Of a stretch of DNA of 64,000 bases, positions 8,866-58,195 are shown in pieces. This stretch comes from Siphonodentalium dalli (Eukaryota > Mollusca > Scaphopoda > Gadilida > Siphonodentaliidae). A model generated the notes under the pieces. That model did no database searches. It saw only the letters and a list, made by a program, of their open reading frames with translations, and was not told the origin of the DNA. The position numbers and the translations under genes were made by a program. The stretch covers positions 36,862,732 to 36,926,731 of the forward strand of contig CP136065.1 of NCBI GenBank assembly GCA_032622095.1. The letters are read 5' to 3'. The stretch's first letter is position 1; each line of letters begins with the position of its first letter.

Positions 8866-8869
8866 TTAA

Positions 8870-27145: not shown

Positions 27146-27287
27146 ACCTATCCATAGGGACCGCCCCAATTTCAATTATAGCCAATGAGCCGATAGCTCA
27201 AACCCGGAAGCGACTTGCGCCTGCCTAGTGGTATGAATCGCACCACAAGCCGATGCTTAGATACCATAGTAAGCTATAGGGAAATTA

Positions 27288-27413
27288 CGAACACGAGAGC
27301 AAAATGTGTCGGTTTCCTAAACCAGGACGTACTAAAGACAAGTGTTTACGCTGGATTAATCAATGTCATCGACAACAGTCGGATCTTAATATTGATAGGA
27401 TAAACTTTTGGAA
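27288..27413 (+). pseudogene. THAP-like domain fragment in element M
   Basis: From TGAGAGC-like context into AAATGTGTCGGTTTCC, one frame reads SKMCRFPKPGRTKDKCLRWI and continues NQCHRQQSDLN. This resembles the FxRFPK...CxRWIxxCxR core of THAP DNA-binding domains, which occur in P-type transposases and domesticated proteins. The N-terminal CxxC pair and the C-terminal CxxH are not seen in the same frame, and a stop follows. The start shown is approximate. Confidence 0.5.
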
Positions 27414-28512: not shown

Positions 28513-28689
28513 TTAGTTAACTTCACTCGTTCTAATGTCATGAATATATCCCTGGGTATAATAATTAAACCCCTTTTCTTGTGCCCTTTTTGATAATTTA
28601 TCAATGTCGGGTAAATAACAAACGTTGATATCGTCTGGAACATTTAAAAGCGAACTTGAAACACAAGATCCGTTCTCATCGGAAGCCAT
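28513..28689 (-). pseudogene. Short ORF, N-terminus of a SWIM/YqaJ-like protein
   Basis: ATG at 28689 opens a 58-residue frame with DDINVCYLPDIDKLSKRAQ then FNYYTQGYIHDIRTSEV before TAA. The YYxxGYIHDI pattern resembles the start of invertebrate SWIM-zinc-finger proteins that carry a YqaJ-type nuclease domain; this is recalled resemblance, not a search. The rest of such a protein is absent, so this is a remnant or a truncated first exon. It points inward from the right end of M. Confidence 0.35.
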
Positions 28690-28781
28690 TTCAGCACTGA
28701 GATATAGCGAAATCGAGATGGCTTGTGGTGCGTAGTAACAGTAACCATGCAGTATACTGGTGGGCGGTCCCTATGGATAGG

Positions 28782-29431
28782 AACATTGTAAAATCGGTAT
28801 GCATTTCTGCTTCCAGTTGTTCTTTTAGTATGATAATCTTAAAAGATGACACCATCATCCCGATAATCCGCTTTCCAGCCACATCGAGCTATTTAGCAAC
28901 CATACTTATTTGTCAGAAAAATCAATACTTATTTTACTTACAAATTAAAAAAAATGTCGGGTCGCTGTTAAGCCTTAATAAGATCTGTAAAATAAGTATG
29001 CAATTTCACTCCCATATATATTTTTCATTTTGTATGATTATCTAGATAAAAATCATTCCTGCTAATCCTTCTCCAGTCTCCAACCATGTCTATATACATA
29101 TGTGACAACCATACTTATTTGTCAGAAAAATCAATACTCTTTTACTAACAAATAACAAAATAATGTCGGGTCGCTGTTAAGCCTTAAAACGATTTGTAAA
29201 ATAATTATGCAATTTAATTGCCATATCTGACCTTTTTGTATGATTATCTAGATAAAAAGCATTCCTGCTAACCCCTCTCCAGTCTCCAACCATGTCAAAA
29301 TACCTATGTGACAACCATACTTATTTGTCAGAAAAAATAAATACTTATTTTTTAAACGGAATGTTGTCAGGGAATTAACTACATAGAACGATTTATATCA
29401 TCATACCGATATATGATGTAGGGGATATAAT
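28782..29431 (+). repeat. Repeat array J, block 2
   Basis: Three units with CAACCATACTTATTTGTCAG at about 28898, 29104 and 29310 give a period near 206 bp. The form GTCGGGTCGCTGTTAAGCCT at 28957 and 29165 is the empty-site counterpart of the place where element I inserted (32107-37681). Confidence 0.85.
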
Positions 29432-30189: not shown

Positions 30190-32110
30190 GACAACAGTCC
30201 ATCTTTTGTTTTGCGAACAAAAGGATGTCGAGTCAATATTAATAGCCTTAAAACAATTGTAAAAAAATTGTAAATTAAGCTTACTATGCAGTTTTATTGC
30301 CCATATGTTATTGCCAAACATACATTTTTGTCAGAAATATCAATACTTATTTTGCAAATGAAAATAAATGTAATATCTATGTTAGAAGCCTTAAACAATT
30401 GTAAAACAAGTATGAATTTCTATTCCTAAATATTCTTTTTGTGTGATAATCTCGACCGACATCATTCCACCTAATCCGCTCTCCGTGGCAGTCATATCCA
30501 TTTCACAGCCATATATACTTATTTGTCAGAAAAAAATAAATATTTAGTTGAATTTGCTAAATGCAGTTCTATTTCTAAATGTTCTTTTCGTATAAGAATC
30601 TCGACCAACATCATCCCTGCTAATCCGCTTTCCAAACATACCTATTTAGCTATTTGACAACCATACTTATTTGTGAAAAAAGAAATCAAACGAAACAAAA
30701 TGTCATGTTAATTGTAACAATTGTAAACTCGGTATGCATTTCTGCTTCCAGATGTTCTTTTAGTATGGTAATCTTAAAAGATGACTCCCATCGTCCCCGA
30801 TAATCCGCTCTCCAACCATACCGAGCGATTTGACAACCATACTTATTTGTCAGAAAATTCAATACTTATTTTACTTACAAATTAAAAAAAAAAAAAACGA
30901 CAAAGTCACGACATTCAGATTTGTAAGCCGTTCCATGTGTTGTTCGTGAGGCATTAATTAATAACTAAATTGGATTAACACAGAAATTAGGGTGCAATTT
31001 GTGTATGGAATAATCAGTTTTGAACTTCGAATAATACACAATAAAGACGAATAAAACACAACTCAAATTTCATTCCTGCAATTTGAAGCATAATATTGTT
31101 CATTTTCCATATATATTTTCAATTTGTTGGATCTTGTGTTTTAGCGTCTCTGATCACTTATATATATACCTGATGTCCCCAGGGTTGTAAACTTCGTCTG
31201 GAAGGGAAGAAACATATAATTAAACATAGGTACACAAACACCAAACTTAATATGTATACATAACACGCGATTCCCAAATGTTATTTTTGTGTGCTAATCT
31301 TGACCAGCATCTTATCTGCTATTCCGCTCTCCAGTACGTCTACCCATTTGACAACCATACTTATTAGAAAAATCAATACTAAAAAATGTCGGGTCAATAT
31401 TTTAGCTTAAGTGCAATTATTTGAGATATGCACAAATATTTTAGCTTAAGCGCAATTATTTGAGATATGCACACATAGTTGTGCTTAAGCGCAGATATTT
31501 GTAATTAAGCTCAAATATTTGTGCTTTAGCTCAATTATGTATATTTCATTCCCCATCAATATAGATCTTCCCTCAAAAATAAAATAGTCTTCCCCTGTGT
31601 GCATGGTGCACTCTAGTGTGTAGTTGATTCTGCCAATATCAACAGGGTGTGTCAGGTAATGTTTTTAATGTCCTGATTTGCGCTTTGGCTTCCCATAAAT
31701 ATTGTTACAAGCTTTAAGACATTTGTAAAATAAGTATCCACTTTTATTCCCAAATATTCTTTTTGTGTGGAAATTTCGACCAACACCATCCCTGCTAATC
31801 CGCTCTCGAACCATATACCTAACTATTTGACAACCATCCTTATTTGTCAATCAATACTTATTTTGCGAACAAAAGTATGTCGAGTCAATGTTACAAGCCT
31901 TGTGACATTTGTAAAATAGTATGCGTTTTTATTCCAAAATTTTCTTTTTGTGTGGTAATCTCGACCGACATCATCCATGCTAATTCGCTCTCCAGCCATA
32001 TATATACCTAGCTATTTGTACAACCATACTTATTTGTCAACCATACTTATTTGTCAATCAATAGGCCTACTTATTTTGCGAACGAAAAGGATATGTCGGG
32101 TCAATGTTAA
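30190..32110 (+). repeat. Repeat array J, block 3
   Basis: J units with CATACTTATTTGTC-type landmarks lie near 30515, 30660, 30835, 31355, 31832 and 32022. They are interrupted by non-J sequence at about 30900-31250 and 31400-31660. The second interruption has short repeats of TTTAGCTTAAGCGCAATTAT. The last unit reads GTCGGGTCAATG then TTAA at 32107, where element I begins. Confidence 0.78.
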
Positions 32111-35100
32111 AGGCACGTGCGGCCTTAATTGTCTAAAATATTCATATTTGTTCCAAACACCGTAAACAGAAAAACATTAAAACGCATACAGTTCCGTTCA
32201 TATATACCATGACCATCGCGTAAACAGCATGTTATCATAAAGACCTACTATATTTTACCTAAGCAAGAGCCTGATTGTGTTACAGAAGACAGCACAATGC
32301 TACTTAGTCCAGGAGATATTGGTCGACCTCTGCACCCCCCAGGACTTAACTTCACCCCAATAATTTTCTTCCTTAAGGTCTCCTCTAATTTTTTTCACTT
32401 GTTAACAAGAAAAAAAAGTGGCCGCAGAGACTCCAGACAAGATGGCGTCCATCATGGCGGCCATTTATGTTAAATGCACCAGGTCTCTTTGATCGCCGTT
32501 ATAGTAAAGATGATGTCACATGCCGTCTTGTTTTCCGCTCGATTCGTTATGCTAATATACAACCCTTACAAATTAGCCAAAAATCCGACACCAGAATCCA
32601 ATATGGCGGCCAAGATGGCCGCCGAAATGTGAAAATATGCTATTGTTCTGACATGTTACCACCTTTCGATTGTCTCTGTTGGAAAATGTTAGAATTTTTG
32701 CGTCATGTTATACATTTATCATATAGAGGAGTCATTGGCGAACACATGGGGACCATAATATGCATTCATTGCGGGATATTTTTGTCCGATATCACGTTTT
32801 CCCAAATGCCGGTATCATAGGTCAAAGCCGAATCTCCGTTAATAACGCGATGTTATGTTTCGAATCAATGAATGTCATTGCTATTATAACAACACCCATG
32901 CATATATATTTGCAGGACATACTCGAGCTAGGATTCCTCTTATACCTGAGTTGAGGAAATATTTACCCAAATCCAAGATGGCGGCCAAAATGGCCACCAG
33001 AAATAAAAAATCGCCGAAAATCGCTGATTTTAACAACAGTGATCATTATTGTCATGACAACTCCACACCTGCTTACTATTGTAAGTTGGGAACACTTAGG
33101 CGAAGAACTTTCCTTGTACCATATCCAAATAAAAGTTCCCCAAATCCAAAATGGCGCCCACAATGGCGGACATATTTTGAAAAATCACCGAAATTCCCTC
33201 ATATTCACATCATTGGGCATTATTGTCGAGACAACTCCATCCATGCGTACAGTTGAATTGGAAATACTGGGGTGAAGTAATTACCTTTCATCTCATGCAA
33301 GAAGTGGTTTTCAAAATCGAAGATGGCGGCCAAAATGGCGACCGAAGTTTGAAAACACGCCTATATTCCTTTACTTTCTTAGGATGGGCGTTATTGTTTC
33401 GCGATTTCTAACCACCATTACATGTTGATATGTATGAAGTATTCATTAGTGTTTGGCAAGTGATACTCACATTCAATATGGCGGCCAAACTGGTGGGCAG
33501 AAATTGAAAAGAAGCCGATATTATCACATACTAATTTCAACTTTATGTCATAATATTGATTTGTATAAACGAAACGGTACATACTATAAGCCATCTATTA
33601 GTTCCAATGTAAGTCGTAGTCTTTTGGAAGGATGAAAACTCACAATCGCGATGTGGCATTTCAAAATCCATTCTCCACTAAGGGCTCATACTGGCCGTAA
33701 CAGTATATAGGTGCGCCGAATAGTCATATTATGACTTCCAAGAATCAAAACAACAGCTTATTCTGAATTGCCACATTCAACATTATCTAGACTCGTTTCC
33801 GTCTCTTCGTCAGATTAGTCTATCTCACTCACAACAACAGTTCATTACTCTTCTTTGTAGAAGGGTGCCACTAATCGGAATGTTTCAAACAATACATACA
33901 TGTATGCCGGTGTCCAGCTCACGTGTTTGTTTCGAAAGCTTGGAATTCTTAGCGAGCTTCATTCGTGGTATACATGTAGCTCATGGTATAATTCAGATGC
34001 TATATATGGGGTATATATGCGTCATCTTGTGCGATACACTATAAAGGTATTCGGTCGATGCATATACTAGCTTTCAGAAGGACCTATCTATCTGCGTATT
34101 GTCAGCTTTGGTGGCCTAATGTGGATAACAACGTGCACACCTGGTGATCTTCCCAAACAGCCACTTCTCAATATATGGTTCATCAATTCACATACTCATC
34201 TAATGCACTGACGTACCCGGACAACTTTTGTATATGGCTTCGAATGTTGAAAGCCCGACAGTTGACGGATGTATTTCTGCTAAGGCGTAGAAGACCATAA
34301 TGCATAATATACCCAAACTCCTTGAACATGATCATAAGAACAAGCTTGTTGGCGTCCAGCAATCGTCTCACCGAACAGATCCAAGCAGATGATAACAATA
34401 CACACGGTGCTAGTTTATGGGTATGTGTCATGATAGTGGAAATGAAATTGGACCATGACTGCACCGCCCCTTATTTTGTTATGTTTTATATTCAGACAGG
34501 ATCTCATGTGTGGCTTTGCTTTCCTTATATGCTAAGATTGTATGTTCCCATCCGTTTGGAAGCCGTTCTTGAACAACTGGACCAGGATTATGCCATTGGC
34601 TACTGCTGTATAAGCCCCACCAAGACTGGGTGTAGTCTTAAAGGCGATACCTTTGATAGTTGGTTGATATGTCATACTCACGCTGGGTGGTATGGTTCAA
34701 GAAAGTACAAATGCCATCAACAAAAGGGTGAAATATTCAACGCGAAGAACATCCAGAGGAATGTTACGTTGATGAGCTCTTGCATTCAGTTCAACAAACG
34801 TTGGTACACCAAGTGATTTCTTGGTAACATCACCATTGCGACAATTTTCCTGCACGAGACATTAACTACTATATTCTAAAGTTATATATATAAAGCTATA
34901 TGATCATAAAGTTCGCGTTCCCCAACGTCCACAGCCATTGCCATCGAGACTGTAAATTGTTCTTTAAATACATAGTGAAATAAATGCACCACAGTTCCTG
35001 ACATTTTCTTGAATAATACCGCCCACATACTGACACTATCCCCGAGAGAGGATAACAAAACACGCATACATTCATGCTATAAAGACATTATCCTTTAGTC

Positions 35101-37677
35101 CATCCGACTGTTTTGAGGGAGGCTAGCATAGTATTATCCAGACAAAAGTGTACGTAGTTGAATCAGAAAGGCTTCGAAACGGATGTGGAAATACAATCTT
35201 ACCACACCAAATAAAACCGACACGCATGACATTCGATATATTAAACATACACCAGGTGTAGGGGTGGTGGTGTATACAGTGGCCCATTTTATTCCCACTA
35301 TCATGGCGCATGTCCACAAACTAGCACCGCGAGCATTGTTCTTCTCTGCTGGGAGATATTCGACGAGACAACTGCGGGGCGTCACACAGTTTGCTTCGGA
35401 TAATGATAATGGCCAAGAAGTGTGGGTAGTCTGTACACTAGGGTCTTCTCCTTAGCCGATAGACATCTGTCCAAGGGAATGTGACAGTTAGCAACATTCG
35501 AACACTGTCGAAGTTGTCCACATATGCCAATGCGTTCGCTGAGTGTGTGTTGACGAACCATCTATTGAGAAGTGACTAGCTAACTGGTTCGCCAGGTGTA
35601 CATGTCGTTATCCCATGGGGTATGAGACACATACATAGAGATGACCTTCTGTAAGCTTGTACTCATCGGCCATATGGCCTTCCTAGTTCAAGATGATGGA
35701 CAAATATCATATTTAGCAATTATTTAAAATCGTAAGCTAGACACCGGAAAATGAATTGTTTGAAACGTTATTATTAGAGGGACACTACTCCCAGGAAGTG
35801 GTGAACACTTTGTCGGTTTGAGCCACCTAGATTTATCAGACAAAGAAATGGAAGCTGGTCCAGATAATTATGGACGTGACGTGGCAAATCAGAATCTGTT
35901 ATCAGGTAATTGTTCTGATATAACTATTCGACGCACCTACGCTTACGGCCATTATCGGCGCTAAGTGGAGACTGGATTTCGAAATGCCACATCGCGATAT
36001 TAATGGTGGTTTTTCATCTTTCCAGAAGGATACGAGCTATGTTATGCGTTTTGATAACTTTAAGTTGAACTAGTAGATGGTTTATGTACAGTTTCGTCCA
36101 TACATACCGATATTATGACAAAAAGTTGAAATTAATATGTGAAATTATCGATTTCTTTCCAATTTCTAGCCGCCAATTTAGCAGCGATCTTGGCTGTGAG
36201 TATCAATTGCCAAACCCGAATGAATACTTCATGTTACTATTCCATATCAACATGTAATGGTGGATAGAAATCGCGAAACAATAACGCCCATCGTAAGAAA
36301 GTAAAGGAATGTAGACTTGTTTTCAAATTTCGGTCGCCATTTTGGCTGCCATCTTCGATTTGGAAAACAATTTCTTGCATGAGATGTAATGTAATTACCT
36401 CATCTCAGTATTTCCAACTCAATTGTAAGCATGGATGGAGTTGTCTCGACAATAATGCCCAATGATGTGAATATGAGGGAATTTCGGTGATTTTTCAAAA
36501 TCTGTCCGCCATTGTGGGCGCCTTTTTGGATTTGGGGGACTTTTATTTGGATATGGTACAAGGAAAGTTCTTCGCCTAAGTGTTCCCAACTTACAATAGT
36601 AAGCAGGTGTGGAGTTGTCATGACAATAATGCTCACTGTTGTTAAAATCAGCGATTTTCGGCAATTTTTTATTTCTGGTGGCCATTTTGGCCGCCATCTT
36701 GGATTTGGGTAAATATTCCTCAACTTAGGTATAAGAGGAATCCTAGCTTGAGTATCTCCTGCACATATATATGCATGGGTGTTGTTATAATAGCAATGAC
36801 ATTCATTGATTCGAAACATAACATCGCGTTATTAACGGAGATTCGGCTTTGACCTATGATACCGGCATTTGGGAAAACGTGATATCGGACAAAAATATCC
36901 CGCAATGAATGCATATTATGGTCCCCATGTGTTCGCCAATGACTCCTCTATAAGATAAATGTATAACATGACGCAAATATTCTAACATTTTCCAACAGAG
37001 ACAATCGAAAGGTGGTAACATGTCAGAAAAATAGCATATTTTCACATTTCGGCGGCCATGTTGGCCGCCATATTGGATTCTGGTGTCGGATTTTTGGCTA
37101 ATTTGTAAGGGTTGTATATTAGCATAACGAATCGAGCGGAAAACAAGACGGCATGTGACATCATCTTTACTATAACGGCGATCAAAGAGACCTGGTGCAT
37201 TTAAAAAAAATGGCCGCCATGATGGACGCCATCTTGTCTGGAGTCTCTGCGGCCACTTTTTTTTCTTGTTAACAAGTGAAAAAAATTAGAGGAGACCTTA
37301 AGGAGGAAAATTATTGGGGTGAAGTTAAGTCCTGGGGGGGGGGGTGCAGAGGTCGACCAATATCTCCTGGACTAACTGGCTAACCACACACAAATGGCAT
37401 AAACGCTCTTTATTACTTCCATATCAGGTATTCACTAACAAAGAACGCTCTTTATGTTTACCATCATAATATAAACAAACACCAAAAAAGTAACATTTTA
37501 TGCTTTTGTTTACATAACAATGGTCAAACATATGACCATAACATACTGTTTATGCGATATTTCTTATTTGTATACGTACAAAGTCTATCTACATTTTGAT
37601 GTTCTTTCTGTTTGTGGCGGTTTTTGACGGGTGGATATATTTTCACAGGATACCCACCGCCAAGGCCAACCGTGTCT
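32111..37677. mobile_element. TTAA-flanked element I, host of foldback A
   Basis: TTAA lies at 32107-32110 and 37678-37681. The ends AGGCACGTGCGGCCTT and (complemented) AGACACGGTTGGCCTT form an imperfect inverted repeat. Removing I restores a J unit, GTCAATG-TTAA-GCCTTA, as in intact units (CGCTGTTAAGCCTTA at 28965). The right subterminal part is homologous to 7258-7410 and, inverted, to the left subterminal part near 32150-32260. Excluding A, only about 500 bp belong to I. No coding sequence is seen. Confidence 0.65.
32307..37372. mobile_element. Foldback element A: 5.07-kb near-complete palindrome
   Basis: The left half (32307-about 34840) is the reverse complement of the right half (about 34840-37372). 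Outer arms are very similar; inner parts are more diverged but still alignable (GCGATGTGGCATTTC on both sides, and GGTGCTAGTTTATGG against GGTGCTAGTTTGTGG). Termini are GTCCAGGAGATATTGG and its complement, flanked by TA on both sides. ATGGCGGC-type motifs recur in each arm. No transposase was recognised. ORFs in the inner arms (34322-34816 plus, 35134-35385 minus) encode related peptides because the arms are homologous. Confidence 0.88.
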
Positions 37678-37716
37678 TTAAGCCTTATTATAAGAAATGT
37701 AAAATAAGCTACTATA
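37678..37716 (+). repeat. Sliver of repeat J between elements I and K
   Basis: TTAAGCCTTATTATAAGAAA, then TGTAAAATAAGC and TACTATA, corresponds to the J segment CTTAAAACAATTGTAAAATAAG. It continues at 43563 after element K. Confidence 0.75.
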
Positions 37717-38165
37717 CAGGGGGGTAGTCAAAAATTTGCAGGAAGGTATGCCGGGGTGCTGGGTGGCCCGAAGGGCAAAAAACGTGTTTTTAAAACCTCA
37801 TACAATTTTTTTATAAAGACAATTTGTGCCCTTATTTTACATTTCTAACAGTTTAAAACATATTAATTATAAGAATATATAACTGCAAAAATACCATATT
37901 AATGTTACTGGGACCTCATATGGGCCTTTGTGGAGATGACGTTAAGCTATGGCATGTTGCATATGGGGCGGTGGGGTGAAAAAAAATCCTTCCCGACACC
38001 CTTCGGAAAGAAGCTTCGAGAAAAGTAAAACTGAAATAAATAAACTTGTCTTGATGTAACTAAAGCCTAGATCATTGTGTGCATGGACAAAGAGCGAGCA
38101 ACTGTCTCAAACATTAATGTGACTATCAATGGTTAGAATATAACTGTCATCACACTGTTCATCAG

Positions 38166-40084
38166 GGCCCTGTTTCATGAAGGCAACTTATGACATAGTT
38201 GGGACTTAAGATGGTCATAAGTTCAAACTTCAGTCATAAGTGCGTTTCACGAACAAAGTCTTAACCTAAGATGGTCTTAACTTTGGTCTTAACTTTAAGA
38301 CTGGTGTGAGGACTGGTGTCATAAGATAATCTTAAAGTTAAGACCTACGTTGTGATCCGCAGTTGGTCCGAAATGTGGATGGGATCTAGTTCATGTATAT
38401 ATTATTATAAACACATTTAACTGAATAACACCTTGCTAGCATTGAGGGGTGTTTCAGAAATGGTAGTAATTAATAACCAACTGGTAAGCTATAGCAGTGA
38501 CGTGACCAGTGGTTGCAAGATTGGCGGGGTGTCCGCTACTAACCGTAAACAGCCAAGACCGGACTATATATACATTTCTAATTGCCGTAACAAAAATAAT
38601 ATATTTACATAGAGTTGAACATCATTTGCGATTCAAATCACCCAATCGCACTGCAGACAATAATCATGTTGAGACAATTAGTCCCAACATTTTCATATCG
38701 AGGATAATAGTGAATGATTTATACTCATTTTTGTTTTATAAATGCTTATGTCAGCTATTAGTATTATTATTATTTACTTACCTTTCTATATTATTATGTT
38801 ATAATTTGATTGTAAAATGTATTGTATATGTACCCCGTATATATATCGGCAAGATAATAATACATAATATATGTTATTTTATTATTATTATGTATATTAT
38901 CATAATCTATTAACTATGAAATAAAAAGATATATAGCATGTATATAGTATACGGACCGCGCGGGCACACCGGGATCCGCGAAAGAACATATATCACTGTG
39001 AACCGGCCCACAGACCCCTGGGGGAATTACTAAAATACCAATATAGACTATACCAGTGGTATAGTCTATATTGGTATTTTAGTAATTTTCCACAGACCGT
39101 CTGTTCACGTGTTGTTAATTATAAACGCTCTTTATTAGAAGTCGTTGATTTGGTTTTTATTAAAACATACATGCAGAATGTCGTTCAACGTAACGTACTT
39201 TCGAAGTTCATACGCAGTTTGTTAATTGTAACAGACGTTTAGCACATTTGTCAACAGAACCAGAGCAAATGGCATTAACATCATTTATATATGGCTTCTA
39301 CAAGTATGTCTCAGATTGGAAATAAGGCTATTTGGAGCACGATATGAAGTCCTATTCACATTATAGCAATATAAATAAAGAGCGTTTTGTGTTAGTATTC
39401 CCTGAATGTTGGCAATCAATAAAGAGCGTTTAGCTCAGTGCTTCCATTGTGGTGTATTGTATGTGTATGCCGTCGTGGCGACATATTCGGTTTCCTGGTA
39501 TTATAGATGCTTCAAAGACGTATAATACACTATAACCTAATATCAGCATTGAAAGGAGCGAACATATGTCTCGCGTCGCCGTTGTGGCATGTTATATGGG
39601 TGAAGGTTCACATTCTGAGTTACGATGTATAAGCCCCTTTAATAACTGAAATAATATATTTGAGCTCGTTACGTTTGTATAAAATAGGCATTGGAAGCAT
39701 GCAGCTATGTGTGGATGGGGTCTGACGCGAAAACACAGTTAAAAAGCGCGCTCGTGCAGTTAAGTATGCACCAGTCATTATACTGATTATCGCCCTTGCA
39801 TTAAAATATCATAATTATTCTTAGACACGCCCTAGTATATGTCACCAGACACTGTACATAGGCATATACATACACAGAACCAACATGTTCTGTGCATAGC
39901 TGTAATAAATTGTCGAGAGCCAGTCTAAAAGCGCGCGAACTTAAATTACTACTTAAGTAGGACTTAATCTTGTTTTGTGAAACTCGTTCTTGAAACGGAA
40001 AAGTTACATCATAAGATCCACCTTAGATCTTAGATTAAGTCCATCTTAAGATAATCTTATGACATTGCTTCATGAAACAGGCCC
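38166..40084. mobile_element. PIF/Harbinger-type element D1 (non-autonomous)
   Basis: The ends are GGCCCTGTTTCATGAAGG and, complemented, GGGCCTGTTTCATGAAGC. CAG at 38163-38165 and CTG at 40085-40087 fit the 3-bp CWG target of PIF/Harbinger elements, with one base changed. The empty site in the second K unit reads CATCAGTGCATCAAGCC (about 42674). Subterminal regions are rich in CTTAAGAT/ATCTTAAG words. No transposase was seen. A perfect palindrome sits at 39025-39087, and AATAAAGAGCGTTT motifs occur inside. Confidence 0.8.
39025..39087. repeat. Perfect 63-bp palindrome
   Basis: Two 31-base arms (AATTACTAAAATACCAATAT... and its exact complement) flank the single base at 39056. No mismatch is seen. 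It lies inside D1. Confidence 0.97.
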
Positions 40085-40260
40085 CTGTGCATCAAGCCAA
40101 TCAGTGAAATATTTGGATGTCTATCAACTCATATGACCGGCTACTCCAACAACACCTACAATATCCAAGTCTGGCATAGTGACTGTTTGTCATTTAACAG
40201 AGCTATGTTGCTCCAGTAGACTAACAAATGTATTAAGGCATAATGCTAGATAATGGGCTG

Positions 40261-41526
40261 GGCCATGTTTCATGAAAGCAACTTATGACATAGTTGGGAC
40301 TTAAGATCGTCATAAGTTCAAACTTCAGTCATAAGTGCGTTTCACGAACAAGGTCTCAACTTAAGATGGTCTTAACTTTTGGTCTTAACTTTAAGACTGG
40401 TGTGAGGTGTCTTAAGATAATCTTAAAGTTAAGACCGACGTGATCAGTGGCATATCGATCACACATATGGCGGCCTATGTTATTTTGCAATTACGGAGAG
40501 ATCTACGACGACAAAGGCTAGTTAGGGACAGAAACAATCCACTTGATTGCATGGACGATGAAGAGATTAGAGCAAAATATCATATTCGAAATGGTTGCAA
40601 CATTATCACATGGTGCTTTTTGGACATTAAATGCCCACGCCCATGTCGTGATTTTCAAGGCTGTCCAAATGTTTGTCATGTTTTTTGTTGTTGCAGGGGT
40701 GGGATGACCATTGTACAGCATACTGTATATATGATATACACACCCGTAACGATGGCACCCCTTAATGCGAGTGTGCTAATGAATACGTAGTTATATATAT
40801 ATATATATCTATAGTATGACAACCGATAGATATACATCTGCATAAAAATAATAACAAAAGTTAATCTAACAAATATTTTTCATTTCCCTTTGAATCGAAA
40901 AATGACCTATGTGTGTCCTGATGACATTGCCGATTTATTTTGATTATTGCTACACGTAGAGAGCGATGGTCGATAATACACGTGTTATGTCGGCTCACGT
41001 AAAAACATCGCCGCCTGATCATTGCTCTCAGTGGATTAACTCGGCGTGACTGTGACTGCATGGTCGCAGTCATGCATCGATCCATATAATTATATTATCT
41101 TATTCCTGACAACGCCACTCAACAGTAAACGCAAAGCTCGTCATTTTAAGAGCCTGCGATGTACTCATGTTCGAATTTACATCGTAGAACCCATGCAAGT
41201 CTAAGATCCATATGCGAATATAAGGCCACTGACTATAGACACTAAGATACATGCGCTGATTCGCCCACCACCACAGCCGCTATCCAGCATCCCTGTCACA
41301 CAATAATGTCAACTCGTACTCGGCTCTTTCTCGATAACCTCTCAATGCCACACATACAGATTGCACAAGCCCACATTATTGTGTTCCGGACTGTAGAAAA
41401 TTGTCGATAACCAGTCTAAATGAGCGGGAACTTGAAACGGATAAGTTACATAATAAGATCCACCTTAGATCTTAGATTAAGTCCATCTTAAGATAATCTT
41501 ATGACCTTGCTTCATGAAACAGGGCC
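40261..41526 (+). mobile_element. PIF/Harbinger-type element D2 with transposase remnant
   Basis: The ends are GGCCATGTTTCATGAAAG and, complemented, GGCCCTGTTTCATGAAGC. CTG at 40258-40260 and 41527-41529 is an exact 3-bp target duplication. Removing the element and one CTG gives GGGCTGGTTGACAG, identical to the empty site in the second K unit (about 43210). It shares its terminal regions with D1 and carries a HARBI1-like fragment. At 1.27 kb it is far shorter than an autonomous element. Confidence 0.88.
40467..40790 (+). pseudogene. HARBI1-like transposase, N-terminal fragment
   Basis: The frame opens ATG GCG GCC at 40467 and reads MAAYVILQLRRDLRRQRLVR, then DRNNPLDCMDDEEIRAKYHI. The RxxRDRxNPLDxMxDEExxxKY pattern is typical of the start of Harbinger/HARBI1-family DDE nucleases. 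After about 50 residues the resemblance stops, and the frame ends at 40790. The catalytic DDE region and the usual length (about 350 residues) are missing; internal deletion has probably fused 5' coding sequence to other DNA. An upstream in-frame ATG at 40440 is not favoured, because homology begins at the later one. Confidence 0.72.
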
Positions 41527-41687
41527 CTGGTTGACAGACTAATCGGGAAATGGTTAGAAATGATGGAATTGTGTGTATCCTGTACAGTGACCTAAGTTTG
41601 CATATATAAGTAAACTTGTCCTGATGTAACTATTGCGTAGATTATTGTGTGCATGGAAAAAGAGCGAGCAACTGTCTCAAACATTAA

Positions 41688-42642
41688 GGGTCAGACGCAC
41701 GTTTTGCCAAAATTTCCTGGTATTTCAAAATGTATTTTCTCTACATCCATCAGGAATATCTTTGTGAAATTTTGTACAAGAGATTATTGTGGTACCATAC
41801 ATAAGAACCATTGGACATTTGGTTATTATAATCTCATTTACTTTACTTTTATGGCATGAAAAATCTTTAAAATTTCACTGTGTTCAGGTACCGATAACTA
41901 CTGTAAAACAGATTTTTTTCGAAAGTGCATTTCATATATACATGATATCATATCTGAAGATCATGAGAGGAGACTTAATTTTTCTTGATTCATGAAATTA
42001 AATGATTATTTTCATTCAGAAAGACAACTACCATAAATATTTTTTTATTATTGAGAATTTTCATGCCATGCTTGTTGGTCATTGAAAAATTGGGCTGAGA
42101 TTAGTTCTGGGTCATTGGTTCATAACCAAGTTAAATCTGACCACCATATCTCTTAACACTGTGGCCTAATTTCTGTTGATTGCTCCCTGCTTGAGTGGAC
42201 AGCACCACATTTGAACATTTGTTTTCATTGGGCTGGCATATTTGTGACTGCTTTATTCTTCATTATAATACATGGGGTATGATGCTATAATATGCAATTA
42301 AAAAGCTAACTCAACATTATGATACAAATGAAGCCTCCTCTCATGGAGTCAAGACAATAAGCTATTTGATGGTTGACATGTTGTTTGAAATTATAACATT
42401 TTCTGGCAGTTCTCGGTACCTAAAGGGACAGAAACGAAACAAATATTTTCAACCTCTCAAATGTATTAAAATCCATTATTGTTATTGTCTTTATAATTGC
42501 TCTGATTCTATATATAATGAAAATTATCAGATGTAAAATTCAAGATTTTTCACCGGATAGATCCAGAGAAATTCTTCGTTGAAAATCACTTGCCATTTCT
42601 GGCTGGATTTACTGTGATTTATGCAAAACTTGCGTCTCCCCC
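41688..42642. mobile_element. TTAA-flanked element E (piggyBac-like, non-autonomous)
   Basis: TTAA lies at 41684-41687 and 42643-42646. The ends are GGGTCAGACGCACGTTTTGC and, complemented, GGGGGAGACGCAAGTTTTGC. The empty site in the first K unit is CAAACATTAATGTGACTATC at about 38110. The 955-bp interior is AT-rich with no recognisable protein. Confidence 0.85.
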
Positions 42643-42788
42643 TTAATGTGACTATCAATGGGTAGAAAATATCTGTCATCAGTGCATCAAGCCAATCAGT
42701 GAATTATTTGCATGTCTTTCAACTCAGATGATCTCTCACAAGACCTAAAGTATCCAAGTCTGGTATAGTGCTGTGCCTGATTGTCATC

Positions 42789-43150
42789 TGTATATATAAA
42801 CGAGTAGGATCTGTCTGGATTTTTCTCTCAGACATCTGGACCGAGTTCAACCAAATCTGGTGTGGTGATTCGGGGTATCCTGGCGGATGTTATAATGGTA
42901 TTAGTTTTTCAAAAGTTTTAATGAAAAAAAATAAAATAAAATTGGTTTTGTTAAATTGAGCAAGGAATTCAATCTTTAAAAAAAATATATTAAAACAATA
43001 TATATAAATCAAAATGTTTCAATTACCAAATGTTCTTGAAGCGCACAAAGGGGCTGTCGCTAAATGAAGGCTCTGTCTAATATCAATGTGTGCGAAGTCC
43101 CACAAAGGGGACCACATGTATCTCCGATGCTGAATATAGCAAGTTCAGTA
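42789..43150. mobile_element. Insert F in the second K unit (approximate ends)
   Basis: About 360 bp between GATTGTCAT and GTTGCTCAAGTAG are absent from the first K unit, where TTTGTCATTTAACAG runs directly into GTTGCTCCAGTAG. The insert begins with TATATATAAACGAG and contains ACCGAGTTCAACCAAATCTG. Ends and class are undetermined. Confidence 0.55.
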
Positions 43151-43562
43151 TAATAGAAGTAAGTTGCTCAAGTAGACTAACATAAGTGGTATGTAGTATG
43201 TTAGATAATGGGCTGGTTGACAGGAAATAGTTAGAAATTATGAAATGTTGTGTATTCTGCACAATGACCTAGGTTTACAGATGATCAGCAATTTATAAAA
43301 TATTTTTTTCCAATTAAATCAGCTTCTGAAACAGGTTAAACTGTTATTTGAACTAATTTAGATCATTTCCATTCATATGAGTGATATCAATAGATATGCG
43401 ATTTTAGACCAATTTTAGTGAAATTTGGGGGGTGGGTGTCAAAAAATTGGGAGTAGAAATTATTTTATTTTGTTTGCAGGTTTGGGGGTGGTGGGTCCCC
43501 GAAAATGCCAGATACAAAAAAAAACGGCATACCTTCCTGCAAATTTTTGAGTACCCCCCATG

Positions 43563-43596
43563 TACTATAAGAAATTTTATTCCCAAATGCTGATGT
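43563..43596 (+). repeat. Sliver of repeat J between K and the LINE
   Basis: TACTATAAGAAATTTTATTC then CCAAATGCTG continues the J unit left at 37716. The remainder of the unit resumes near 49470 (ACCAACATCATGCATCCCTG). Confidence 0.7.
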
Positions 43597-43770
43597 TGTT
43601 TAGGCCTACTTCTTCTTTTGGATGAGATTCCCCCGTTGATTATGCGAGGCACTCCAGTATTGGATGAACGTATAATGTATTCCTCCGAGTTGAATTGAAT
43701 CCGTGAATATACAACTGTGTACGCATTTACATATGGCGTCAGTTAAGAGCCTTCTATACCAAGAGAATAC

Positions 43771-44160
43771 CTAAGAGACTTTGAGCTCGGAGCGAGTCTT
43801 GCGTGGTCTATGTGAAACTTTCCCTTTGACCTTTAGGACTGCAAATCTTCTAGTATGGAGCTGATATAGGAATTCTCTTGAGTAAAGTTCTAGCTGGTCA
43901 ACAGAGTGTTCCTCCCAGTCGATGGTATCAGGAATATCTGGATGGCTAAGGTCAAGGATGAGTTGGGTAAAGGTTGCTGAATTGTCTAGGATGACTTGAT
44001 TTATACTGGGGAGACGGCTGCGGATCTTCTGTTTGAGTCTGGATCTTTCCTTCTGGTAGGTGGGACAGGAGGCGATAACATGTTCTCTGTCTCTGGACCA
44101 AGGTTGCATGTCAGGCAGGTAGGACAGACAGTGTGTTTTTTGAAAGCTGCTTTATTAGCC
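43771..44160 (-). pseudogene. LINE ORF2 C-terminus with cysteine motif
   Basis: Minus-strand frames give a CPTCLTCNLGPE-type pattern followed by DREHVIASCPTY (about 44060-44140), a CCHC-like arrangement near the end of many LINE ORF2 proteins. The frame then runs to a stop at 43771 with IPDTIDWEEHSVDQLELYSR. Its function in retrotransposition is presumed nucleic-acid binding. Confidence 0.6.
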
Positions 44161-44379
44161 TGGAAGGTATAGGTGCCGCACAGGAACTTGGCCTTAACCT
44201 CGATACGTCTTACGTCAAATATGCTAGGTCTAACAGAATTGTACAGTCTATGGACAGAGTTGTAGGCAATTCCTTCAGGGTTGAGTAGCCGTAGAGAGGA
44301 TTTCGCTGAGATGTCATTTCTCCATTTTTCCTGTCACTTTAGCAGCGACTGCCTCGTCTGTATTTGTAAGTATGATTGA

Positions 44380-45080
44380 TTACAGACCATAGACGATGCG
44401 TGTGACAACGTAGGTTTTCCATAATTTGGCTTTTACCAGCTGTGTGATTCCAGTTCGACCATGCATTCCATAGCCCATCAGTGCATAGGCAGTGCGTCGG
44501 CCAAGAATGATTTTTTCTTCAATGTTGGCAGTACTCTTCTGGTTTCTTGTGATACCGAGGTGTTTTATCAGCAGCGGCTGCGGAATACTCTTTTCAAAGA
44601 TTTGACGATCTCGAGTCATCTTGGCATTGTAAATGATGCATGCACTTTTTGCAGCATTAATGTGGTATCGGTTATTTCGTGAGAAGTTTTCCACTGCATT
44701 AAGTTGGTGTTGCGCTTCTACTGAGGAGTGTTACCAGGGCAATATCATCAGCGCAGGTCGTATGGGGAATCTTGATATCGCCGATGGTTGCACCTTTAAA
44801 GTTTGATTCCAGTTGTAACAGGATATTATTATTAAACCTTTTATAGTTCGCTGTTGACAGGAATACTCCTTGGCGTACCCCTTGTGCTATACTGAAAGGG
44901 CTGGAGAGCTGGTTTTGCCATTTCACTCGAGAAGTCATGCCGGTATACAACAGGACCCAATCTGAGCCAGTGATACCGCCCAGGTACAGCTTTCTGAGCA
45001 AGATGTTATGGTCCACAACATCAAATGCTTTCTGAGCCGCAAGCGTGATTAGGAGTAGTGGTTTGTTGGTAAGTACCGCT
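44380..45080 (-). pseudogene. LINE reverse transcriptase core
   Basis: Minus-strand motifs in order are AAQKAFDVVDHNILLRKLY (motif A region), GVRQGVFLS (the GxRQG signature) and HTTCADDIALVT (the F/YADD motif with C in the first place). INAAKSACIIYNAK and LIKHLGITRNQ follow, typical of the post-catalytic region. Two frames are needed, with a break between about 44695 and 44700. The aspartate expected before AQKAFD is replaced by alanine, so this copy is probably inactive even where in frame. Confidence 0.8.
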
Positions 45081-46072
45081 TCGTTGATGCATTCAGTGGC
45101 GATTAGTGCAGAATTCAGACATGAAGTACCAGTCGTGAAGACAGACTGGAGTCGTGATTGGTCTTTCGAGATAACTTTATTGTGCCTAATGTTGAAAACA
45201 TGTTCCAGGATCTTTCGTAAGAGAGGTGTGACGGAGATGCCTCTGTAGTTGGTTGGAAGGTGCGGGTCACATTTCTTGTTTACTTGAGTCAGGATGCCCT
45301 CCTTGAGGATAGATGGGATCGATCTTCTCTGTATTAAGAGGTTGATGAGGTTTTTGATGTATGTAGTGACCGCGTCCGGAGATATTTTTTATGTGTTCAG
45401 CTACTATTCCGAAAATGTCTGCGGCCTTGTTATTGTTAAGATTCCTGATGGCCTGATATACTTCAGTTATGGTAACTAGTGGAGTAGTGATTCCTTGACT
45501 ATTACAAGTGACAGCTATTCTGGAGAGATCATCATCAACCAGTTTCTTGTGATTTGGAGAAAAAATTGGATCTTCCTGTGGTGTAGCTAGTTTTGAGAAG
45601 TATATATTGCCGCCCTGAATTATGTCTTCTGGTGAGTTTTATGTTTGTTCATCAGTTATGAGTTCAAGTATATGTTCAGATTTGAAGGATCGCTGTTGTT
45701 TAATCAGGTTGAAGAATATATTTGGTTCATCCTTGGCTTCCATTATCGCTGTTAACTGATCTTGTCGAATTTGCGTGAAATATTTGACGCTGGGTCTTCC
45801 TAAGTTGTATTTTGGCTTGCTTCATGTGGAGTAGTGTTATATTGTCATCTCCCTGGGGTCTCCCAGCTTGCTTCCATCTGAAGAAGCCGGCTTTGCTAAT
45901 TATTACTGCTGTGGTGATTTCTTCATTCCAGGTTTTCTTTACTGGAACCCTTCTACTTTTGGAGATTGGGAGACTTTATATAGCTGCGCTCTTGAGAACT
46001 TCTGTTAAATGGAGGATAGATTGTTGTGTCTGGAATTCATTTCCAGCTGAGGGGACTTCCTTATATAGGTTG
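45081..46072 (-). pseudogene. LINE ORF2 linker and N-terminal reverse-transcriptase region
   Basis: Weakly open minus-strand frames contain pieces such as RVPVKKTWNEEI (after the endonuclease) and ISKAGFFRWKQAGRPQG. Further on are FQPTTE- and LEHVF-like pieces before the motif A region. The region is broken by stops and frame changes. Confidence 0.6.
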
Positions 46073-46830
46073 TCATGTATATATCCATGATATTTGGTTT
46101 TGTCTAGTTTTGTCCATGTATATCTTTTTCTTCTGGTGTTCCACGGCATCAGAGAGTGTGAGGGCTAGTGATAGAGTAGCCGAGACAGGTACATGGTCTG
46201 AAGTATTTGATGACGATTTACTGTGGACGCTGATGGACTCTATTAGACGATTTCCTTGTTTTGTGGCTAGTATGTAATCTATTTTTGATGTACTATTGCC
46301 CGAGTCATGGAAGAAAGTTGGCTTGTCTGGCTGAATGGTTGAGAGTTTGAAGTTAGCGCAGAAATCTCTAAGTTTGGCGTCGTGTTTGTTATCATGACGA
46401 AGTTGCAAGGAGCCGTTCACGTCACCATATAGAAATATAGCATGGGTCGATCTAAATTTTGTCACTATTTCTTCCGCTTCAATTATGGTGGCTGTGTATT
46501 CCGATATTGAGTTGTTGCCTCTGGTCGGGAAGTATGCACATATGATGCAGAGTGGAGGGGAGGTGACCACTTCGAGAGCTGCTATTCTGGAGCTGCCATC
46601 CGGGAGTTTCCTCATCTTGACATTTAGGTTGTTGTTGTTGTATAGGATAGCGACTCCTCCGTAGCCCCGGGGTACTTTGCATGGACTGAATGGTTTGTGG
46701 AGATCTTTGTTAGGATGTCTAGTTGGAAATCAAATAGCCAATGGTCCTGGATGCACATGATGTCAGTGTCTTTGAGTAGATTTTGGAGATTAATCTGGAC
46801 GTTTTTGATGTTGAGAGTCGCTATGATAAT
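46073..46830 (-). pseudogene. LINE apurinic-type endonuclease domain
   Basis: The longest frame (46615-46073) has PPLCIICAYFPTRGNN, then FLYGDVNGS (GDxN), STSKIDYILAT and NTSDHVPVSA, the ordered signatures of the exonuclease-endonuclease-phosphatase fold. Upstream pieces IMCIQDHWLFDFQ and GYGGVAILYNNN lie in adjoining frames up to about 46830. The domain nicks target DNA to prime reverse transcription. A frame change near 46620 separates the N-terminal part. Confidence 0.82.
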
Positions 46831-47909
46831 CTTATTCTTCTCCCCTCCGCGGTTGAGGTCCGGCCGTGCTCTAAAAAAGACTGTGTACTGGCACTGGAAT
46901 CTGGGCTGGTCACGAATATTGCTACGTCTACTTTTCTGCTTTCAGGTGTGTTCAGAGGATATGGTGCAGGAGAGGTTGCTCCCTTTAGTAACTTCTTGGG
47001 TGTAGAGTGTTCTCTTGGAATGGGAGCTGCTGGGGGTTGTGCGAGCTTATCTGATGGTGGATGATCTGTTGTGAATGTCACTCTGCTGGGTGTCGGCTGA
47101 TCATGTCCTTTGGTTGTATTGTGTACATCTCTAAATCTCGGGGGTTGCCGGTGCTTATACGAGGTTCCTGATTTGGCATCTGGGGCTTTCCTATAGTTAA
47201 CAGCCGGATGACGTCGATCAAGGGAACGGCTGGGATAGGTATGTACCTTTGGATAAGTAGCGTGCGTCTGGTAGTTTGTTGCCTGACTTTGTGGTGGATA
47301 GATATAGGGGATGGCGGTATCTGCCAGAAGTGAGTAGGATGACTGTTGTGGCAGTCGTGTCCAGCGAAGTTATGTGATGGTGGCTGCATTGGCGGCGGTG
47401 GGCCCATCGGTACTTGCCAGTTGCTGGTGTACGTTCCATTGTTGTTCGCATGAGGTGGTACCATGCTGTTGAGTGTGGATGGGAAGAGGTCCGCCTTCAA
47501 GGCCTGCTGCTGCTTGCCTTTAATTGCTCGATTTCGAGTTCCCGTACTCGGTATTGAAGGGGAAAACTAGCATCTTCTGAGCTAGAATCATTGCATGGGG
47601 TATGTCTTTGTTGGTTTTGTCGTTGGGGTGGTGTCGTTTGGCTATTTCCACATATGTTGGCAGTCGCCTGCAGCCTACAAATACGGTTTGAGTCCTCCAA
47701 TTCACTCAGGCGAGTTTCAAGTTTGGAGATAATGGAGTTTGCGAGGTTTAGTTGTTCCAGTAATTCCGATGAGGATGGGTTAATTTTTGCTTTGTGTTTT
47801 AGCTTCGTTGAGCGTCTATTTCTCTTCTTGTTTGGGGAGAAACGCTCTTTTGTATTTGGTGTATATCTATTGTCTCATCAGATGTCTTCAGTGTTTGGGT
47901 TTGCTGGAT
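46831..47909 (-). pseudogene. LINE proline/serine-rich linker between PHD ORF and endonuclease
   Basis: Minus-strand frames are low-complexity: PMGPPPPMQPPSHN (about 47400), QPPAAPIPREHSTPKKLL (about 47000) and RVRELEIEQLKASSS (about 47540), which may be a coiled coil. No structured domain was recognised. It could be the C-terminal part of ORF1 or the N-terminus of ORF2; frame breaks prevent a decision. Confidence 0.5.
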
Positions 47910-49001
47910 TTATTGTACTATACTGTGTGTGGACAAGATTTCCTCTTCTATAAGGGGAGCGGAGGGGATATCAGGATCATATTCTCTGTGTGTAACATCA
48001 GCATCATGTGTTGAATAGTTTATAGAGATTTCAGCAGGTTTCCCTTGAGTTGTGTGGGAAGAGTTATGAGATTCATTGGAAAGAGTTGACGATATGTTCG
48101 TCTGGTAGAGTGTTATGTGTCGACAGGTGATACAGCTATACTTGGGTGATCCCTCATAAAATTTCGCTAGGTCTTCATCGAGATACTCGCAGGTGTCATG
48201 ATACCAATGCTGGCAAATATCGCATTGGAAACCATTTTGGTTGTTCTCGACCTTCATGTTGCATTGGGAGCATGTTTCACAAATTGAGATGTCGTGATTA
48301 ACTTCTCGGATCTCTTCAGAGGGAGGTCGGGTAGGAGAATATGGTTGCGATGTTAACTTGAGAGTGTCACCGCATATGGAGGTGCTTTTTCCAGGGTCAT
48401 CAATACTTTCCTTCACACATCGATCAATGAGTGCAGCTATGTGTCTGTCGAGTTTAGACATTTCCGGCTTCTTCTTAATATTTTCAATGCGTTCGGGTAG
48501 GATATCATCTTGGAAGATGGGTGTAGCCCTACCGTTCACGAGAAGGGAGCACTGCGTATGGTACATATTTATGGTGAATTCTATACGTTTTCCGGGTAGG
48601 CCGGTGGCTAGAATGCTTTGGCATTGGATGACGACTTCTGGATTGAAGTTATATTTGTCAAGGGAGTTTCGGATGGATGGAATGATGTTGTTCTTCGCAA
48701 CCAATTCGGGTTGACTGAAGGTATGTAGGATTTCTTCTTTTATTAGATGGTAACAACCCGCACTGCATTCAATCTTTAGTTGGGTTCCTTTATCTTTGGG
48801 GATTATATTGATGAAAGGTTTATTGCATGTTTGTCGGGTCTTCTGGATATTTTTTGTGGGTTGGGTGAGTAGTTCTTCACTATGTAGGATGTATTTGCAT
48901 ACCCATTGATGACATAAGGCCTCTTCATAGCTTGTCGAGCTGATGAGCGAGTCGACCAGTGGATTGGTGTGGTATTGGTCACTGATGTGGGTCCGTGGCA
49001 A
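47910..49001 (-). CDS. LINE ORF1 protein with PHD finger (363 aa)
   Basis: This uninterrupted frame starts at ATG 49001. The frame stays open for about 35 more codons upstream without another ATG, so the start is the first in-frame ATG. Residues 1-180 contain a conserved-looking region with YHTQCSLLVNGRATPIF. Residues 244-293 form a complete PHD-type C4HC3 finger: C244-C247, C260-C263, H268-C271, C290-C293, with W266 near the histidine. The tail is polar. ORF1 proteins bind element RNA; PHD fingers occur in the ORF1 of some CR1-group and related LINEs. An intact ORF1 in an element with a broken ORF2 suggests moderate age or chance preservation. Confidence 0.82.
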   Translation of the reverse strand: MPRTHISDQYHTNPLVDSLISSTSYEEALCHQWVCKYILHSEELLTQPTKNIQKTRQTCNKPFINIIPKDKGTQLKIECSAGCYHLIKEEILHTFSQPELVAKNNIIPSIRNSLDKYNFNPEVVIQCQSILATGLPGKRIEFTINMYHTQCSLLVNGRATPIFQDDILPERIENIKKKPEMSKLDRHIAALIDRCVKESIDDPGKSTSICGDTLKLTSQPYSPTRPPSEEIREVNHDISICETCSQCNMKVENNQNGFQCDICQHWYHDTCEYLDEDLAKFYEGSPKYSCITCRHITLYQTNISSTLSNESHNSSHTTQGKPAEISINYSTHDADVTHREYDPDIPSAPLIEEEILSTHSIVQ

Positions 49002-49469
49002 ATATAATCTATCAAGACACGTTGTGGGCTCAAAGTGGTATTTGAAATCATAGTAGGTTACACAATTAATAGTCTTTGTAAGTTATTGATTCAAAGTTGG
49101 TACTGCTGGATGAACGTTCATAAAAATATAGATACTGACGATAAAATGTTCATTAGGTTGGTATCATTACACAGGAATAACACTGTAATGAGTGGATTAA
49201 AAGTTCATAAATTTGATAAAATTTTAAAATCAATATGTCCGCCGCAGCTCCTTCGGAGGGCGGGGTAAAAAAGTTTATGAAATCGCTAGAGAGAGTTCTG
49301 GAACTGACAATATGAAGGGCTATCCTCGTGATAAGACACTACGATTATATAAAACGGCGTTCACTTAGATGACACTTGTAAAACAACACAAAAACAACAC
49401 AAAAACGGTAAAATCTTGGAGCAGCCTTCGAAATCAGTCCGTCCTCATCAGCCTCGATCTCGACCTCAA

Positions 49470-49599
49470 TGGTTATCTTTACCAACATCATGCATCCCTG
49501 CTAATCCGCTCTCCAATCATATCCATTTTACAACCATACTTATTTGTCAGAAAAATAAATACATGTTTTGCAACCGACGAGATGTCGGTGAACGTATAC

Positions 49600-49675
<76 letters not shown>

Positions 49676-50010
49676 ATATATGATGTAGACCGAAATGATG
49701 TATGGCCTGTGAGTGTACGTGGCCCAATAACTCATGTCTAGCAAAAATAAGTATACAGGTATGTTGCAAAAGGTTCTTTTCCTATCGATCAAATCATTCA
49801 TGTATGCCCTCTTCACCGATGCACACCCATACATATTGGACAACCATAAATATTTGTCTAGCAATCAATACTTATTTACAAAATGGCAAGTCATATATTA
49901 GATGCCTGGTTAAAACATTTGTAAAATACCAATTTGTCAGAAAAAAGTGAATACATATTTTACAAACGAAAACATATCATGTCAACGTTAGAAGCCTTAA
50001 AATAATAACT
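49470..50010 (+). repeat. Repeat array J, block 4
   Basis: This resumes the J unit interrupted at 43596 with CATCCCTGCTAATCCGCTCT-type sequence near 49492, then CAACCATACTTATTTGTCAG at 49531. A second unit at 49800-49990 carries TCGATCAAATCATTCATGTA, as at 26805. A (TA)n microsatellite lies within. The block stops after GTTAGAAGCCTTAAAATAAT near 50010; similar sequence resumes near 58196. Confidence 0.78.
49598..49672. repeat. (TA)n microsatellite
   Basis: About 35 uninterrupted TA dinucleotides follow CGTATACG inside a J unit. ORFs of alternating Ile-Tyr here are artefacts. Confidence 0.98.
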
Positions 50011-50698
50011 TATTATATTTACATACTAAGTGTAATTATCACTAAATCCAGCAGTCCGATTGGTCGGCGCCCACGTGACTAGTTGCAGTTATTTATCGGT
50101 GAACGCGCAAAGACCTCATAACACCAGGCCCATAACAATATCGACGCGTCATGGCTTTGAGAAAGAAGAACGCGTAATGTTTGGGCGCATTTGGACTCGC
50201 GCAGGATTGACTTAATAAATCATCAGGTTTCAATACAAAGAGCCTCGTTTTGAAATTGTTCATATTAACCCTTGCCAATATAAAATTGATTAAAAACACC
50301 TTTGGTGCCACGTAGTATTAATTTCTAAAAACAAAGCACGTGGATGATATAAGAATAGTTGTTCATAGTTTAGTTTTTTTTTAAATTAGTTCAAGTTATT
50401 CCCCTTAGACTGGAAACGCTCCGGTATATTTTACTACACCTTAAAAACAGTCCCACTCGATCACAATAACAATGTTACAAATATAAATGCTATGATACAA
50501 TTGATACGTTAATTATGACAATGAAAGTCATTATAACCCTGTCAAATCCAGTTTGTGTTGTTTATTTCCACATTGAATGTAATTATCCCAACCTCACATG
50601 ATTTCACACCTGTTATTTTTACCTGTGAAATCATGAACGACAGTAAATTAACCCCTTTGACCCACGTGTAGTTCTCAATCGACTTTGCTATAATTAAA
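50011..50698. other. 5' flank of the recombinase gene
   Basis: No repeat J is seen. TTAACCCCTTTGACCCACGTG at 50649 is close to the start codon and resembles a piggyBac end by chance or descent. The CACGTG-type E-box is the only notable motif. Confidence 0.35.
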
Positions 50699-51101
50699 AT
50701 GGCCAACAATTATTCTCAACAGAATGGGAGTTTTAAAATCACATGTAGTGTCTCAGATGGTGAACTTTCTGATGATGATGATATTTTAATGGCTGTTGAC
50801 TTGGATGGAATAGAAGAGATGGCAGGTGTCCCAGGTGTGACATTAGAGCAGCTCATGGATATACCATTTGATGACTTACAACCATCCCAAGCTCAACGGC
50901 AGACAAATTCAAACGATGACCCACCATCTGCATCACTGGACCAACATTTGGAATGTTCTACTAGTACCAGTACTGCAGTTACATGCCACACAGGAAACAT
51001 ATTTCAAAGGAAAAGTGAGCAAGAGCTTGAAGAAATTGCAGACTTAAACCAGTCAAAAGCCACAAAAATGAATACACAGTGGGGTGTGAGAATATTCCAA
51101 G
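50699..51101 (+). pseudogene. Crypton-type tyrosine recombinase, exon 1
   Basis: ATG at 50699 (context AAAATGG) opens a frame with an acidic N-terminus (SDGELSDDDDILMAVDLDG) and then ADLNQSKATKMNTQWGVRIF. The last segment is the hallmark N-terminal motif of Crypton-derived proteins such as KIAA1958, QRICH1 and ZMYM relatives. The motif stops at CAAG/GTAAAA (51101/51102), a plausible splice donor; reading on without splicing meets a stop after 17 codons. The remaining exons are broken, so the gene as a whole is a relic even though this exon is intact. Confidence 0.78.
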
Positions 51102-51661
51102 GTAAAAATTGTATTTTATATAAATGTGTTAACTCGCAAAATTATGAAAAGAGATTTTAAAAAAGGTACCTGTACCATACCAATTTGCATGTCTTAATAT
51201 CTGAAGCCACTGAACCGTTCCAAACAACATTATTGTTTGCTATTTATTTTGATTCGAGTGCGTACTGATCCTTTAAATCAATCAAGAATAAATATCAATT
51301 TGTTTCGAATACAAAAACGATTTAACACAGAACATTTGAAAACAAGGCTCTTATTGTAACCTAAAACCAATTGAATAACTTAAGTCCATGGTGCGGCAGT
51401 GCAAATGCGACTAAACAATAACCGATGTATCTTTTTGTCAGTTCTTACCAAAATCAATAAAGAGTCATTGTATTTATGGCAGTAATTATGACGCGCTTGC
51501 AGGTTTATCAAGAAATAATTGCAACAGGTCATGTGGGCGTCGATCAATCAGAATACTGGATTTAATGCAAAAAGACATGTCGTATATGTAAATATATTTT
51601 GATCATTCACAACTCATGAACACAGGCAGTTTGTACAAAAATGTGTCTAATCTATTTGCAG
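51102..51661 (+). other. Putative intron of the recombinase gene
   Basis: The donor is AG/GTAAAA and the acceptor TCTATTTGCAG/ATTGG. Joining them in phase gives WGVRIFQ-DWCKEMD, which fits the family sequence. The 560-bp interior is AT-rich and has no domain. Confidence 0.65.
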
Positions 51662-58171: not shown

Positions 58172-58195
58172 AAATAATACAATATATAAGGATTC

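Follow-up and report, generated by a model that had tools for sequence, protein, structure and literature searches.

Where one ~200-bp repeat unit appears as four slivers scattered over 17 kb of mobile elements, the question arises whether the unit attracts insertions or merely lies where insertions are tolerated. A first-pass annotation of this DNA described such a locus and left it as either an insertion hot spot or a refuge for transposons. We addressed the question in the window, the whole 64,000-nucleotide stretch analysed here (C5:36862732-36926731), using sequence comparisons made entirely within one genome (2.23 Gb, nine contigs) and relying on paralogous copies of the interrupted element to reconstruct its state before and after each insertion.

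The repeat unit, J, is cut into four slivers by three later mobile elements. All lie on the plus strand, at 31998–32110 (with TTAA at its end), 37682–37716 (with TACTATA at its end) and 43570–43609, as placed by alignment to the C4 paralogue and to an intact-unit consensus, and at 49469–50017, where paralogue alignment delimits the fourth sliver together with the J sequence after it. They had been proposed to join in order into a single unit, and they do: once joined, with three junction bases omitted (32110, 37682 and 43570), they align contiguously to a consensus derived from seven uninterrupted paralogues of the unit (L011, L012, L013, L016, L018, L019 and L025) with a score of 445, 256 of 279 columns being identical and 9 being gap columns. 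Aligned singly, the slivers fall in the same order along the consensus (columns 2–112, 118–142, 147–183 and 184–275). The best of the 23 alternative sliver orders reached a score of 382, and the best of 300 joins with random middle pieces 362. The coordinates originally assigned to the slivers hold overall, but the third ends at 43609, the fourth begins at 49469 and the second starts past the TTAA at 37678–37681. The blocks between the slivers, put at more than 17 kb in the first-pass annotation, indeed sum to 17,272 bp and occupy 32111–37677 (block I, TTAA on both sides), 37717–43562 (block K, TACTATA on both sides) and 43610–49468 (a LINE, with no duplication and a clean join).

The J units are themselves part of a dispersed ~6.4-kb transposon, a point missed previously. 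Its copies share common left and right ends, with inverted repeats of ~44 bp plus CCGG. This end pattern, allowing ≤2 mismatches, matches the genome at 162 places, 76 in forward and 86 in reverse orientation, against 0 and 0 for a backwards-pattern control, and 31 intervals spanning 2.2–14.7 kb were paired by hand among the places listed. Exact CCGG adjoins 11 of the 17 left ends shown (five are one base off and L010 does not fit) and 7 of the 10 right ends shown (the other three being one base off). One copy, L020, lies in another dispersed repeat with flanks CAGG and CCGG; 40 of the matches listed span the join of these flanks. Both of those read, L063 and L064, carry a single CCGG, TTGACTTACCGGTGTTATTG, so that CCGG is the target duplication of J. 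The same empty-site comparison with the flanks of L012 gave no match across the full join; several matches, none of them read, extend 7–14 bases beyond CCGG.

Within the window, the host is a plus-strand copy of this non-autonomous DNA transposon at 26016–58948, delimited by a chain against the paralogue reference L011 and by comparison of ends. Its left end is truncated at 26016, and its right inverted end is followed by CCGG at 58945–58948. About 5.9 kb is its own sequence and the remainder is inserted; the range first annotated is thus part of a 33-kb interrupted element, which also contains an 8.2-kb block (50018–58173) and a 1.6-kb block (27144–28784). The J end motif ACAACCATACTTAT (≤2 mismatches) occurs 17 times in the reference copy and has 19 plus-strand matches and one minus-strand match in the window, against 0 for the reversed motif; from this recurrence, the tandem unit of J carries the end motif. 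Two paralogues show unusual arrangements of J ends (positions in J orientation): in L027, at ~3535–3550, two ends stand head to head with one CCGG common to both, and in L015 two left ends, each preceded by the same 25 bp, lie 2.2 kb apart, at 384 and 2540, which looks like a local duplication. Elsewhere in the window, a satellite array at 12359–15254 consists of 111.5 copies of a 26-bp unit, ATATACTGGGATGAGAGCATCCGACT, with 96% matches, and a 253-bp repeat (ACACCAGGCCGACCATGGT...) is present twice at 59320–59807, just outside the right end of J. A search of the window against Rfam at gathering thresholds returned 0 matches.

Block I (32111–37677) is a ~0.5-kb TTAA-type element enlarged by a second element, A (32305–37374). 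The TTAA on both sides in the window has its counterpart in the left ends of I elsewhere, which read T|TAA in 20 of 20 copies fetched from 40 other matches listed; in C4 the insertion point is uninterrupted, its TTAA slightly altered to TTAT. The termini of I (AGGCACG ... CCGTGTCT) have the form 5′-RR ... YY-3′, which, with the TTAA duplications, agrees with the Kolobok superfamily as described in excerpts of PMC9587614, whereas no transposase was seen in I; judged by its ends, the block may be called Kolobok-like. The earlier placement of A inside I is borne out, with ACT flanking A on both sides as a 3-bp duplication and the C4 locus having copies of I that lack A. A is foldback-like, with long inverted arms that are 83–98% complementary over three long stretches, and has near-identical copies elsewhere in the genome; three other copies of I are identical over 191 bp. 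To judge from such near-identical relatives, I and A are young. Four copies of I with 99–100% identity lie within ~1 Mb, at C5:36894839 (the window copy), 37273870, 37513349 and 37865761, an arrangement that suggests local hopping. Flanks were read for two of the other three, and neither is J.

Block K (37717–43562) is a ~1.6-kb element with terminal inverted repeats (TIRs; CAGGGGG...) and a 7-bp TACTATA duplication. Two other K copies were read at both ends: L033 has a 7-bp duplication and L037 none that is clear. Four inserts had been reported within K; three are confirmed, each absent from the K of C4, and the fourth was not found. PIF/Harbinger transposons leave a 3-bp duplication of the CWG type and have a typical TIR start. 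Insert 1 (38166–40084) has Harbinger-like ends, GGCCCTGTTTCATGAA, and the flanks CAG/CTG, and insert 2 (40261–41526) has similar ends and a CTG duplication (CTG/CTG); no transposase was seen in either. Insert 3 (41688–42642) has a TTAA duplication.

The LINE (43610–49468, minus strand) is a non-LTR retrotransposon with a broken frame, recognized by Pfam matches above cut-off to a reverse transcriptase (PF00078, 4.2e-13) and an endonuclease (PF14529, 7e-08); its first open reading frame (ORF) gave a sub-threshold PHD match. Its 3′ end is common to other copies, 39 of the 39 other matches listed beginning at 43605–43609. It has no target duplication, its flanks are contiguous in paralogues, and it is absent from C4 and from the intact paralogues. 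Since the best copy elsewhere (94% identity over 1001 bp) is as diverged as the window copy is from C4, the age of the LINE is bounded only from above. The plus-strand block at 50018–58173, whose site is contiguous in the C4 and C2 paralogues, contains a phage-integrase domain (PF00589, 5.8e-11), the tyrosine recombinase characteristic of Cryptons, and on the strength of this domain we term it putatively Crypton-like; its similarity to other copies (at best 95% identity over 601 bp) bounds its age from above only. The block is interrupted by a foldback-like element, the second in the window (~52130–56770), with ends that by eye resemble those of A. The 1.6-kb insertion at 27144–28784, with ends GGACCTATCCATAGGGACC, is found in neither C4 nor reference L011.

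Paralogues place these events in order. We fetched 20 paralogous loci, of which 12 reach the split-unit site; L014, L015 and L021–L024 were set aside, their matches being to other J units, and L027 and L028 gave no row. At the site, seven are intact, three (L017, L020 and L026) have deletions, L010 holds a different TTAA element and L009, the C4 paralogue, holds K. C4 is the closest paralogue to the window copy. K sits there at the identical base, whereas I, the LINE, K inserts 1–3, the Crypton-like block and the 27144–28784 block are all missing, which makes K the oldest insertion. Over the compared length of the element, K is the one foreign block seen in C4, against seven direct insertions gained by the window copy; this 7-to-0 difference has a two-sided probability of 0.016, a figure that assumes equal exposure and belongs to a comparison chosen post hoc.

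We infer that K in the window and K in C4 descend from a single insertion. The K distance between the two (0.058) falls among those of five flank pieces (0.048–0.071), as a shared insertion would have it. Had K instead entered the two copies independently at the same base, one would understand why window K is about as close to the unrelated copy L033 (0.060) as to C4, and why the two share only 4 derived columns where other K pairs share up to 8; on account of these figures, the identical base position is the main evidence for a shared K. But independent entry would have to reproduce the base, the orientation and the duplication in two J copies that are close relatives, and to do so with K and flank distances in agreement, which we consider very unlikely. 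Less credible still, to the point of being negligible, is an assembly artefact in which misjoined repeats make unrelated slivers resemble one unit: the region is rich in repeats, but the boundaries of I and K are element ends with matching target duplications and the LINE boundary is a family 3′ end with a clean join, features that misjoins would not produce.

The remaining alternative is that insertion into the unit is directed by sequence, making it a hot spot whose motif GTCAATGTTAAGCCTTAA attracts TTAA-specific elements and perhaps others, with GTCAATGTTAA as the site concerned. Reading of the window copy and the 20 fetched paralogues revealed seven TTAA insertions, whose ends are of four kinds (one insertion each in the window copy, L010 and L023, two each in L014 and L015); five of them lie in the J motif (p ~0.03), and the exact TTAA struck by I in the window was struck again in L010, by a different TTAA element (AGGTACTCAACCCG) at 8702–9186. 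TTAA occurs at 55 places in the reference element, however, and the chance probability of two of seven insertions sharing one of them is 0.33. Under uniform chance, the clustering of three of five insertions within 71 bp in the window copy has p ~0.004 and that of four within 200 bp 0.0009; for 18 pooled, hand-read insertions the values are ~0.013 (four within 71 bp) and 0.025 (five within 200 bp), their positions having been entered by hand and excluding L027 and L028 (divergent), the additional J sequence that L009 and L010 have near reference 5770–5940 and a pair of complex gaps in L026 near 5545–5942. We do not rely on these clustering tests; the locus was chosen for its clustering, and the motif, too, was picked post hoc. 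Nor do the three elements follow one target rule, K and the LINE making no use of TTAA, and 10 of the 12 paralogues reaching the site (the seven intact and three with deletions) lack an insertion in the unit. A directed hot spot is thus improbable, although a mild target effect at TTAA is possible, and the three other I copies of 99–100% identity within 1 Mb on C5 hint at a regional effect. The pattern is best fitted by passive accumulation, to which TTAA would have contributed mildly at most and which may have taken place in a region tolerant of insertions. The refuge proposed in the first-pass annotation is accordingly the better-fitting half of its alternative, in keeping with the 10 paralogues free of insertions in the unit and with a C4 copy lacking all seven gains.

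Serial insertion into a dead J transposon after an ancestral K, with passive accumulation, is the account that we hold with considerable confidence. A non-autonomous DNA transposon with tandem ~200-bp units would have dispersed long ago; K would then have entered one unit, and the K-bearing form would be ancestral to the window and C4 copies. The window copy would later have gained at least seven direct insertions (I, three in K, the LINE, the Crypton-like block and the 27144–28784 block), and in addition A inside I. Each insertion would have followed its own enzyme and target rule, the families being several and unrelated, and the insertions would have persisted because a dead, non-coding transposon is presumably not under selection. 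Because the paralogues without insertions are pre-insertion controls, several transposon families can be dated relative to one another at this locus from one genome.

As a transposon pile-up, the locus is ordinary and well documented. Nested plant LTR retrotransposons, as presented in excerpts of PMC6911290, resemble it in having younger elements placed non-randomly within older ones, whereas they concern plant LTR elements only and the present locus combines DNA elements with a LINE. More novel than the nesting is J itself, a satellite-carrying CCGG transposon that looks unusual: no CCGG-duplicating, satellite-carrying transposon was found in the accessible parts of the open-access literature, the available portion of PMC10045372 yielded nothing on CCGG, and in the part of an oyster satellitome table at hand one satellite, CgiSat41, is labelled Ginger1.

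Ginger1 elements, according to the available sections of PMC2836005, have a 4-bp CCGG target duplication, TIRs of 40–270 bp, a TGTNR start and a length of ~2.6–7 kb. J is like them in its 4-bp duplication (CCGG, with CCGT/ACGG also admitted for Ginger1), its TIR length (~44 bp at either end, CCGG not counted, against ~40–270 bp), its TGT start and its total length; it is unlike them in beginning TGTTC, with C as the fifth base, and in that no transposase gene was seen in the copies read. Two TIR-bounded copies (L065 and L066) have no ORF of >130 aa, and a search for rve, in which 150 of 4228 candidates were scored, placed none by eye inside the 31 hand-paired TIR intervals. In a 10.4-kb copy, L067, considered as an autonomous partner, the 2 kb read from the middle resemble another LINE (ORF, by eye). 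Given the departure from TGTNR and the lack of a transposase in what was seen, J appears Ginger1-like and is not assigned as a member. We offer only as a doubtful conjecture that J is of Ginger1 type, with its end motif multiplied into a ~200-bp satellite that would act as a transposase-binding array and, through its TTAA sites, as a trap for Kolobok-type elements.

Two further systems bear on the repeats that J carries. The Tetris foldback element of Drosophila virilis (PMC4079207), with its TIR-220 repeats, likewise has ~200-bp internal tandem repeats resembling part of the element end, but these lie inside long TIRs, whereas those of J lie in the body of the element, in one orientation, between short TIRs. 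The Cg_HINE elements of the Pacific oyster (PMC7492417) are, like J, dispersed and bear satellite-like central repeats, but they are classed as Helentrons, whereas J has TIRs and a CCGG duplication. If J is of Ginger1 type, it would join foldback elements and Helentrons as a further class of transposon by which satellite-like repeats are carried and spread.
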